A DNA stretch of 35,725 nt, from assembly GCA_021790455.1 (NCBI GenBank), contig JAJYDY010000006.1:1-35725 (forward strand), written 5' to 3'. Of this stretch, positions 2,872 to 28,474 are shown in pieces. Source of the DNA: Microcaldota archaeon (GTDB taxonomy: Archaea > Micrarchaeota > Micrarchaeia > Micrarchaeales > Micrarchaeaceae). The notes under the pieces are model-generated. The model was not told where the DNA came from. It saw nothing but the letters and a program-made list of their open reading frames with translations, and did no database searches. Both the position numbers and the translations under genes were made by a program. Every line of letters starts with the position of its first letter. Positions within the stretch are counted from its first letter, which is position 1.

Positions 2872-3390
2872 ATGACGGAAGCACAGCAGCAGGCGCAGGC
2901 AATTACACAAACATCAGCGCAAGCAGCACCGGCAGACGAGAAGAAGAGGGCTCCTGCGAAGAGGAAGGCGCAGAAGAAAGGGGAGAAGATAATCATAGCC
3001 AAGAGCAAGAGGAAGACCTCCATCGCAAGAGCCTACATAAAAAAAGGGAAGGGAATAATCAGGATAAACGGGAAGAGCATAGACGCGCTCGAATTCAGCG
3101 TGATAAGAGACATGATTATGGAGCCGCTCGCGATTTCAAACACAGCAAGGGACATCTCAAAGAGAGTTGACATACGCGTAAATGTCCATGGAGGAGGGGT
3201 CAGCTCGCAGATGCAGGCCATTCGGGGCGCTATAGCCCGCGGATTTGTGGAATATTCCGGCAGCGAGGCGCTAAAGACAGAGCTGATGGATTATGACAGG
3301 ACGCTTATAGTTGACGATCCGAGAAGGGTCGAGCCAAAGAAATTCAAGGGACCAAAGGCAAGGGCGAGATTCCAGACCTCATACAGATAA
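2872..3390 (+). CDS. rps9: 30S ribosomal protein S9 (uS9) with an Ala/Gln/Lys-rich N-terminal extension
   Basis: C-terminal KFKGPKARARFQTSYR, core KRKTSIARAYIKKGKGIIRINGKSID. Confidence 0.95.
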   Translation: MTEAQQQAQAITQTSAQAAPADEKKRAPAKRKAQKKGEKIIIAKSKRKTSIARAYIKKGKGIIRINGKSIDALEFSVIRDMIMEPLAISNTARDISKRVDIRVNVHGGGVSSQMQAIRGAIARGFVEYSGSEALKTELMDYDRTLIVDDPRRVEPKKFKGPKARARFQTSYR

Positions 3391-3401
3391 TAGTGATATA
3401 A

Positions 3402-3602
3402 ATGATGATGCCTGTGCGATGTTTCACGTGCGGAAAGGTAGTCGCAGACAAGTGGGAGGAGTACGACAAGCGCGTCAACAAGGACAAGGAAGATGCGGCG
3501 AAGGTCCTCGACGAGCTCGGCTTCACTCGCTACTGCTGCAGGCGCATGTTCGTAAGCAATATAGAGCTCATAGACGAATTCATAACCCTCAACAGAAAGT
3601 GA
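3402..3602 (+). CDS. rpoN: DNA-directed RNA polymerase subunit N (Rpo10)
   Basis: [19 protein letters not shown]...[25 protein letters not shown] with CxxC and CC zinc ligands. Confidence 0.97.
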
Positions 3603-3635: not shown

Positions 3636-3723
3636 GGGGCCATCTGCTAGTCTGGTAGGCTTCGGGCATGGGGTGCCTGAGACCCGAGTTCAAAAGCAAT
3701 GGCTGAAAATCTCGGTGGCCCCA
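3636..3723 (+). tRNA. tRNA-Pro(GGG) with a 15-nt intron in the T-loop (3695..3709)
   Basis: Acceptor GGGGCCA/TGGCCCC, anticodon loop ATGGGGT in stem CGGGC/GCCTG, T-stem CCGAG/CTCGG; T-loop reads TTCAAA[AGCAATGGCTGAAAA]T; discriminator A. Confidence 0.9.
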
Positions 3724-3748: not shown

Positions 3749-4483
3749 GTGAAGCTAATGGAAGAGGAGATCAAGGAAAATGAAGGAAACGAACTGGCAC
3801 AGGATGCCGACATCGAGAGCGCAGAAGCTCCAGAAAAGGGAAGCAGCGCAGGAGAGAACGGCCTTCTGGCCGGGCAGAACGATTATCTGGAAGTGGGAGT
3901 GCACATCGCGACAAAAGTTAAGAGTGCAGGAATGAAGCGATTCATCTACAAAGTCAGGGAAGACGGGCTCTATCTGCTGGACCTGAAGACCATAGATCAG
4001 AAGATAAGGGTAGCCGCTTCGATGATCGCAAGGTACGACCCAAAGGACGTAGTAGTGACGGCTTCTAGGATATACGCGATAGTCGCCGCGGAGAAGTTCG
4101 CGAACATAATAGGCGCGAAGTTCATAAAGGGAAGAGTCACTCCAGGTACGTTCACAAACCCGCACAGGACCGACTACATGGAGTCGAAGCTGATAATGAT
4201 TAGCGATTCAAGGAACGAGAAGCAGGCGATAAAGGAGGCAAGCATGAAGAACATACCGATAGTCGCGCTAAGCGACACCGATAATTCGACAAAGTTTGTG
4301 GACCTGATAGTTCCGGCGAATAACAGGGGAAGAAGATCGCTAGCATTCATCTATTACCTCATCGCAAGGGAGGTGCTCAAGGCGAGGGGCGACATAAAAG
4401 AAAACTCTGAATTCAAATACAGCCTTGATGAGTTCGAGGCGAAGAGCGAAGGAAGACCTGCAGTGCAGCAGATGCAGCAATAA
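3749..4483 (+). CDS. rps2: 30S ribosomal protein S2 (uS2) with an acidic N-terminal extension
   Basis: GTFTNPHRTDYMESKLIMISDSRNEKQAIKEASMKNIPIVALSDTDNSTKFVDLIVPANNRGRRSLAFIYYLIAREVLKARG. Confidence 0.96.
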   Translation: MKLMEEEIKENEGNELAQDADIESAEAPEKGSSAGENGLLAGQNDYLEVGVHIATKVKSAGMKRFIYKVREDGLYLLDLKTIDQKIRVAASMIARYDPKDVVVTASRIYAIVAAEKFANIIGAKFIKGRVTPGTFTNPHRTDYMESKLIMISDSRNEKQAIKEASMKNIPIVALSDTDNSTKFVDLIVPANNRGRRSLAFIYYLIAREVLKARGDIKENSEFKYSLDEFEAKSEGRPAVQQMQQ

Positions 4484-11464: not shown

Positions 11465-12619
11465 ATGGCACTTCTACTGGAGCTTGTTGACGGGAAGAGC
11501 GCGATAGCCTCAGACCAGTCTACGAAAGACATACTTGCGAAGGGCCACTTCGGCGAGATAAAAGGCAACATCCTATACCTGCAGCCAGAGGAGGTGCTCT
11601 ACCTGGTCGACGTGAGGAACGCAGAGCTGAAGAAAGATGGAAGGGCGCTGGACTTCAACGAAGCGGCAAGGGCCTTCGGGATAAAGGGGAAGATGCTGGC
11701 AAGGTACCTCACTTACAAGGACTGGAGGGACAGGGGGCTTGTCATAAAGGGGCCGGAGTTCCTGAAAAGGGAGAGCACGAAGACGCCGATAAAGAGGTAT
11801 CCCCCTGGAACCCTGAAGATGAAGCCCTACAAGCTCGAGGGTGTATTCTACCCTGAAGACCTTACAACGATAGTCAGCAGCAGAGAGGACGCCAGGGAAA
11901 TATACCTGCAGCACTGGTTCGGGCAGTATGGGACCTACAAGGTGAGCAACAGGGGGTCGCTGAACAAGCTCGACGTCTACGAGACAATATTCCTCCTCGA
12001 CAACGGGAACCTGAAGGTATCCAACTTCACGAGAGCAGAGATTTTCGCGCATGCAGCCAAGAGGAGGAAGGATTTCCCAAAGCTGTATGATGTCTACGCA
12101 GACTGGAGGAGCAAAGGGTACGTAGTAAAGACCGGATTCAAGTTCGGGACGCATTTCAGGATTTACTTCCCGGGCGCGAGGCCGGACAACAATGAGGAAT
12201 GGTCGCACTCGAAGCACGTAGTCCATGTATTCCCTAGGGACGTGAAGCTGCTGATATCAGAGTGGGCGAGGGCGATAAGGGTTGCGCATTCTGTCAGGAA
12301 GACGTTCATACTTGCAATCCCTGGAAAGAGCAGGGAGAAGAAGCTCGCGATCGACTTTATCCTCTACCACAGGAAGAAAGGCAACATCGAGGTTCCAGAG
12401 GAGGACGCGCCAAGGTTCGGCATGCTCTCCTTGAGCGAGGACGAATACATAGGGGGAGCAGAGCTGTCAGCGATAATAAGCCAGGCGAAGGCGCACAAGC
12501 TGGAACTCGTAATTGCGATAGCAGACAGGGAGACGGCTGTGACTTACTACAAGGTGAGAAGGATAGAGCTTCCAAGAAGCGACTACGAATACTACGAGAT
12601 AGACTGGATGCAGCCCTAG
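11465..12619 (+). CDS. endA: tRNA-splicing endonuclease, three-unit (epsilon2-like) architecture
   Basis: Central catalytic unit GYVVKTGFKFGTHFRIYFPG...EEWSHSKHVVHVFPRD...RVAHSVRKTFILAI carries the EndA Tyr/His/Lys triad context; an extra N-terminal EndA-like unit and a C-terminal beta-like unit bring it to 384 aa. Confidence 0.88.
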   Translation: MALLLELVDGKSAIASDQSTKDILAKGHFGEIKGNILYLQPEEVLYLVDVRNAELKKDGRALDFNEAARAFGIKGKMLARYLTYKDWRDRGLVIKGPEFLKRESTKTPIKRYPPGTLKMKPYKLEGVFYPEDLTTIVSSREDAREIYLQHWFGQYGTYKVSNRGSLNKLDVYETIFLLDNGNLKVSNFTRAEIFAHAAKRRKDFPKLYDVYADWRSKGYVVKTGFKFGTHFRIYFPGARPDNNEEWSHSKHVVHVFPRDVKLLISEWARAIRVAHSVRKTFILAIPGKSREKKLAIDFILYHRKKGNIEVPEEDAPRFGMLSLSEDEYIGGAELSAIISQAKAHKLELVIAIADRETAVTYYKVRRIELPRSDYEYYEIDWMQP

Positions 12620-25006: not shown

Positions 25007-25081
25007 GGGCTCGTAGCTCAGCCTGGTCAGAGCGATGGTCTTATAAGCCATAGGTCGTGAGTCCAAATCTCACCGGGCCCA
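25007..25081 (+). tRNA. tRNA-Ile(UAU)
   Basis: Acceptor GGGCTCG/CGGGCCC, anticodon arm ATGGT-CTTATAA-GCCAT (anticodon TAT), T-arm GTGAG-TCCAAAT-CTCAC, discriminator A; TATA-like ttatatatc upstream. Confidence 0.9.
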
Positions 25082-25380
25082 CTAACTCTTTATAAGCGGC
25101 GAAATTACAGGCCCTTTTTTCAGTGCACGAAGGTTTTTTAGCAATGCGAACGGGAAATCTCATATGCTTTAGCGGTGGGATGAAAGCGAAACGCGGGAAA
25201 ATCCAGCGGCAAATATCTTCTACTTTCTTCCAAACATGCCAAGGCCGGCAGCGTTGACTGGGAACCGCCTGGGATAGGCGCAATCTCTGCTGGAATCTTG
25301 CAGAGATGTATTCAAAAGGCGCGGCATGGCATCCCCCGTGCAATTTAAGTGTCTATTCGGGTGAAGGCTGCGGCGCGCAG

Positions 25381-28401: not shown

Positions 28402-28474
28402 TGGGGCCGCCGGGATTTGAACCCAGATAACCGACTCCCGAAGCCGGCAGTCTACCAGGTTAGCATACGGCCCC
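28402..28474 (-). tRNA. tRNA-Pro(CGG)
   Basis: Minus strand GGGGCCG...CCGGC-TTCGGGA-GTCGG...CTGGG-TTCAAAT-CCCGG-CGGCCCC-A; no intron. Confidence 0.93.

Follow-up and report, generated by a model that had tools for sequence, protein, structure and literature searches.

The tRNA-Pro(GGG) gene and its surroundings

The window analysed here, a stretch of 35,725 nt, is contig C19 of a Micrarchaeota genome assembly (782 kb, 45 contigs, 84%-complete). Its closest relatives with a name are MAGs of Candidatus Micrarchaeota; the nearest of all, L031, has an EndA with 91% identity. Direct reading of the sequence reveals an 88-nt tRNA-Pro(GGG) gene, with CCA not encoded, which sits between rpoN and rpS2 downstream of rpL18e-rpL13-rpS9. 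The genes relevant to the analysis are as follows.

2872..3390, plus strand: rpS9 (Pfam Ribosomal_S9, 1.9e-36), first gene of the conserved rpS9-rpoN-tRNA-Pro-rpS2 arrangement, found in 93 of 100 relatives
3402..3602, plus strand: rpoN (RNA polymerase subunit N), named by a sequence motif in its translation
3636..3723, plus strand: tRNA-Pro(GGG) gene (direct reading; model R1; syntenic orthologues in relatives)
3749..4483, plus strand: rpS2 (Pfam Ribosomal_S2, 9.8e-20), start codon maybe at 3760
11465..12619, plus strand: EndA, a three-unit epsilon-type tRNA splicing endonuclease of 384 aa (Pfam tRNA_int_endo, 8e-30; PDB 4FZ2, E=8.6e-161)

The earlier note had placed a tRNA-Pro(GGG) gene at 3636-3723, and both direct reading and the syntenic orthologues bear this out. 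The acceptor stem is GGGGCCA/TGGCCCC plus A73, the anticodon arm is CGGGC-ATGGGGT-GCCTG and the variable loop is AGAC; all stems are intact except for a U-U at the end of the D-stem. The T-loop of the gene has 22 nt, as compared with the normal seven.

Neither ARAGORN nor Rfam at the gathering score reported the tRNA-Pro(GGG) gene in the window, and a search of the whole genome with RF00005 missed it even at E<=10 because of a 15-nt insert in the T-loop. Model R1 recovers the gene at 3636-3723 (83.4 bits, E=1.3e-15). Since R1 was built partly from the GGG and CGG genes of the window, recovery of these two is by construction, and the informative result of the R1 search is the absence of a fourth Pro tRNA. 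Three were found in the genome: CGG (28402..28474), TGG (C9:1009-1081) and the interrupted GGG gene. A second intact tRNA-Pro(GGG), which the earlier note had named among the observations that would tell against its reading, was not found in the 84%-complete assembly.

Two other observations concern the tRNAs of this genome. The window carries at 25007..25082 (plus strand) a tRNA-Ile with anticodon UAU; Ile UAU is listed as lost in archaea by a review (PMC8007984). Elsewhere in the genome there are six long tRNAs of 99-124 nt (L175-L180, on contigs C30, C22, C28, C23, C33 and C6), none of which is reported by ARAGORN; L176-L180 have inserts in the anticodon arm and normal T-loops.

Anatomy of the T-loop insert

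The T-arm can be read as a bulge-helix-bulge (BHB) motif with the parts listed below.

3636..3694, plus strand: 5' exon, tRNA positions 1-59, ending in TTCAAA (alignment with intron-less orthologues)
3684..3715, plus strand: T-arm and BHB outer helix, CCGAG 3684-3688 / CTCGG 3711-3715 (direct reading, folding)
3689..3692, plus strand: 5' strand of the BHB central helix, TTCA, equal to T54-A57 of the mature tRNA (4/4 pairs in 58 of 59 introns)
3693..3695, plus strand: 5' bulge AAA, with the expected cut between its second and third bases (direct reading and BHB cleavage rule)
3695..3709, plus strand: 15-nt intron AGCAATGGCTGAAAA at 59/60 (BHB register; absent in five and present in 72 of 80 orthologues)
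3696..3703, plus strand: inner hairpin GC-AATG-GC, with GC at 3696..3697, AATG at 3698..3701 and GC at 3702..3703 (inner pairs covary in relatives)
3704..3707, plus strand: 3' strand of the BHB central helix, TGAA (direct reading, comparison of introns)
3708..3710, plus strand: 3' bulge AAT, with the expected cut between its second and third bases (direct reading, comparison of orthologues)
3710..3723, plus strand: 3' exon with T60, the 3' strands of the T-stem and acceptor stem and A73 (alignment with intron-less orthologues)

Two 3-nt bulges, AAA and AAT, thus lie on opposite strands with the 4-bp helix TTCA/TGAA between them. When 3695..3709 is taken out, what is left is a normal cloverleaf with the T-loop TTCAAAT, which aligns end to end with the intron-less orthologues. 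The dissection of the T-arm in the earlier note, into outer, central and inner helices with bulges AAA and AAT, agrees exactly with our direct reading. The same can be said of the intron coordinates it gave, of the position 59/60 and the mature loop TTCAAAT, on which the intron-less orthologues agree, and of its use of T54-T55-C56-A57 as one strand of the central helix, TTCA at 3689..3692 being paired with TGAA.

From the window gene alone the splice register is ambiguous: 15 nt removed after TTC, TTCA, TTCAA or TTCAAA give one and the same product. Among relatives there are inserts that end in ...AAAC^T or ...AAAG^T, or that start with T, G or C after TTCAAA, and these yield TTCAAAT only if cut at 59/60. 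The register was therefore set at 59/60, the only cut in which the variant insert ends of the relatives fit TTCAAAT.

Archaeal tRNA introns have been described at 53/54, 56/57 and 59/60; they are 11-129 nt long, the medians being 12-25 nt (PMC4090602), and 673 non-canonical introns were counted in 217 archaeal genomes (PMC8450103). Both the position 59/60 and the length of 15 nt fall inside the positions and lengths of PMC4090602; with position and length already documented in archaea, the insert would be a T-loop intron of a known type. The earlier note called the intron minimal and very short. Its length of 15 nt is right, while 'minimal' is overstated given introns of 11-14 nt in relatives and the published archaeal medians. 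Group I and group II self-splicing introns have a conserved ribozyme core that is itself a hundred or more nt long. The insert has 15 nt, and the window contains no Rfam match to either group.

The minimum-energy fold of the precursor (ViennaRNA, -41.2 kcal/mol) keeps the T-stem and a short 3-bp inner stem and does not form the TTCA/TGAA helix; the inner helix of the BHB motif in the window has only 2 bp. The absence of TTCA/TGAA from this fold suggests that EndA may have to capture the motif, and BHB motifs of this kind may be stabilised by the enzyme.

The 59/60 intron in syntenic orthologues

We located the syntenic gene in 80 genomes of the order, from two families and with the window included, and parsed it in each. 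An insert at 59/60 is present in 72 of these orthologues and an insert at 53/54 in 33; 30 have both and five have neither. The 59/60 inserts are 11-32 nt long, mostly 13 to 17, and each of the 72, once removed, leaves TTC[A/G]AAT. All five intron-less orthologues belong to the genus of the window and have an intact TTCAAAT, while the insert is present in the eight other members of the genus that were read, among them the window. The intron-less gene in G003 has exactly the same exons as G001, G005, G007 and G012, in which the inserts measure 15, 14, 14 and 17 nt and differ in sequence.

Of the 59 distinct introns at 59/60, all but one have every pair of the central helix formed (58 of 59), the TGGA and TGAG variants being saved by G-U pairs. 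The first inner pair is formed in 56 of 58 introns (35.4 +/- 2.6 expected) and the second in 44 of 58 (24.0 expected); for either pair, none of 10,000 shuffles reached as high a count, the shuffle dealing the 3' ends anew and so taking the sequences as unrelated, with the hairpins very divergent. The types of pair vary as well (GC, TA and AT for pair 1; GC, CG, AT, GT and TA for pair 2), which indicates covariation. Judging from these comparisons, the insert is not due to chance; the bulges and the central helix are retained, and the tip of the hairpin is free to drift.

One genome outside the order (G252, L264) also has a 59/60 insert in its tRNA-Pro(GGG). In a genome of family f9 (G243, L279) the tRNA-Pro(GGG) has a longer T-loop insert with the hairpin CACTCTCTC/GAGAGAGTG, the boundaries of which are apparently shifted with respect to 59/60.

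On a weakly supported tree of 70 genomes, made from rpS9, RpoN and rpS2 and lacking resolution in 31 of 67 inner branches, six changes are required for the 59/60 state, ten for the 53/54 state and one for the anticodon. The occurrence of 59/60 introns throughout two families, together with intron-less genes in one genus, points to an old intron with a few exact losses as the simplest reading. Gains at the 59/60 site may also have occurred.

Persistence of the intron at the same sites across two families could also mean that a real BHB intron has been kept by selection, for instance because an interrupted T-arm is useless as an attachment site for integrating elements. The attachment-site idea has been discussed for archaeal tRNA introns, T-arms being known integrase targets (PMC4090602). 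Five members of the genus of the window do without the intron, however, and rare exact loss may explain the persistence equally; we consider such selection unlikely.

Retention of the insert, with a mature tRNA, functional or non-canonical, that has an enlarged T-arm, would agree with the stable precursor fold at -41.2 kcal/mol. Against it stand the orthologues of the same genus that lack the insert in an otherwise identical gene. Moreover, the length and the hairpin vary from 11 to 32 nt around constant bulges and a constant central helix, which is not expected of a constrained mature structure, and this explanation seems to us very improbable. A decaying pseudogene hit by a random insertion, with CCC/CCU read by another tRNA, is scarcely credible: ARAGORN and Rfam make no call here, but the stems are intact apart from the U-U at the end of the D-stem, the gene is held between rpoN and rpS2 across two families, and it is the sole tRNA-Pro(GGG) found in the assembly.

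Splicing machinery

We return to the reading of the insert as an old intron removed by BHB splicing. In the established scheme of such splicing, EndA cuts each bulge after its second base, and the exons are joined by RtcB. The EndA that the earlier note located at 11465..12619 is confirmed by a full-length match to the ARMAN-2 epsilon2 endonuclease 4FZ2, and its catalytic residues Y234, H248 and K279, as well as K159 of the ARMAN-specific loop (ASL), are invariant in the 77-79 relatives that could be read. The catalytic triad and the ASL lysine of epsilon2 EndA have been described (PMC6379350). With three units in a single chain, the catalytic Y/H/K and the ASL Lys, the protein has the features of the epsilon2 type. 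An RtcB ligase is encoded in the same genome (G000:C13:3156-4460, E=4.8e-165).

Canonical as well as relaxed motifs, in various positions of the tRNA, are reportedly cut by the ARMAN-2 epsilon2 enzyme (PMC6379350, PMC4033280). The gene in the window would provide the sole detected tRNA-Pro(GGG) of the cell, with a transcript interrupted at 59/60 by a BHB intron of 15 nt. A homodimeric epsilon2 EndA, encoded 8 kb downstream, would recognise the 4-bp TTCA/TGAA helix and the two 3-nt bulges and cleave each bulge after its second base; RtcB would then join the exons into a normal tRNA with the T-loop TTCAAAT. The intron would be an old cladewide feature lost in some members of the genus of the window. 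Cleavage, ligation and ancestry for tRNA-Pro(GGG) are steps that we infer from sequence; the account as a whole, from the BHB intron at 59/60 of the sole tRNA-Pro(GGG) through EndA cutting and RtcB joining to old age and partial loss, we hold to be very probably correct.

Orthologues with two T-arm introns

Thirty orthologues have, ahead of the 59/60 intron, another one at 53/54 (CCCG-AGN...CGGG-AAT); the exon that separates the two, TTCAAA, is 6 nt long. Double-intron genes include L011, L014, L018, L021-L024, L026, L030, L183, L184, L186, L189-L192, L194, L196, L200, L203, L204, L209, L212 and L217-L219, among others. In three orthologues (L016, L025 and L028) the only intron is the one at 53/54, with a length of 22, 23 and 35 nt, respectively, and the T-loop is intact. 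The window gene has the 59/60 intron alone.

The CCCG strand of the 53/54 motif corresponds to positions 48-51, and its 3' bulge contains T54. In the 59/60 motif, positions 49-53 are required in the outer helix and T54 in the central one. Since the two motifs share a T-stem strand and cannot coexist, ordered splicing is expected in the double-intron orthologues, with excision of the 53/54 intron first.

An AGG anticodon in the sister family

In the sister family of the same order, f2, the anticodon of the orthologue is AGG in all 16 genes read (L201-L215 and L220). A sequence pattern specific for f2 detects the AGG gene in 71 of 79 f2 genomes, in 0 of 86 genomes of the window's family and in 0 of 137 others. 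When 12 f2 genomes were searched with R1, the hits with an anticodon read had TGG, CGG or AGG, and tRNA-Pro(GGG) was not among them. One f11 genome (G245; L265/L290) has an intron-less tRNA-Pro(AGG) along with TGG and CGG, and a search of this genome did not find tRNA-Pro(GGG).

We rejected a misplaced loop as the source of the AGG call, since each of the 16 genes read has a 7-nt loop, TTAGGGA or CTAGGGC, closed by a stem of 5 bp, and AGG is also what ARAGORN reports for the intron-less gene of another family. A TadA-like editor as the explanation of AGG gave no clear link: PF00383 was found in no more than six of the 12 f2 genomes, and f1 genomes have it too, though PF00383 is a broad deaminase family and a specific editor is still compatible with its distribution.

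According to reviews, A34 tRNAs are absent from archaea. In a codon reassignment assay unmodified A34 read CCU and CCC about equally (PMC11066159); with the two codons read almost equally, a tRNA-Pro(AGG) could serve as the sole reader. We lean towards a wider reading for this order. The tRNA for CCU/CCC would be concealed from ordinary scanners by one T-arm intron or by two, and in the many members with two, these would have to be removed in a set order, 53/54 first. In f2 the gene would have changed from GGG to AGG, so that A34 would be the sole dedicated reader of CCU/CCC there, with one f11 genome as a second lineage that has this anticodon but no intron.

Known systems and significance

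Our search of the open-access literature yielded nothing relevant on Micrarchaeota T-loop introns, on anticodon exceptions or on the tRNA-Pro(GGG) gene. The intron resembles non-canonical introns of Thermoproteales, Nanoarchaeota and other archaea (PMC4090602, PMC8450103) in its BHB motif, its position 59/60, a length in the range of 12-25 nt and the presence of EndA in the genome. Unlike the Thermoproteales and Nanoarchaeota cases, it belongs to Micrarchaeota and to one syntenic tRNA-Pro gene throughout an order. ARMAN-1 and -2 have been listed as having tRNAs with multiple introns (PMC4033280). In Pyrobaculum islandicum the tRNA-Pro(UGG) has introns at 25/26, 37/38 and 56/57 (PMC4090602). 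Relatives of the window gene likewise have several BHB introns in one tRNA-Pro gene, but theirs are two introns 6 nt apart (53/54 and 59/60) with motifs that compete for one strand, and the window gene itself has only the 59/60 intron. The EndA of the window is similar to that of the ARMAN-2 epsilon2 system (4FZ2; PMC6379350, PMC12397907), to which it is homologous over its full length, catalytic triad and ASL lysine included; we found no report of such an enzyme assayed on this tRNA-Pro(GGG) substrate.

The gene adds one more well-supported T-loop intron, with a clear comparison of presence and absence, in a group with a known broad-specificity epsilon2 EndA. As both general tRNA finders that we used miss it, annotation made with them would wrongly call tRNA-Pro(GGG) absent. 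The double-intron relatives raise the question of whether overlapping BHB motifs force a splicing order, and the f2 orthologue that of whether A34 truly serves to read proline codons in some archaea. If true, the A34 tRNA-Pro of f2 would be an exception to the rule that A34 is not used in archaea.
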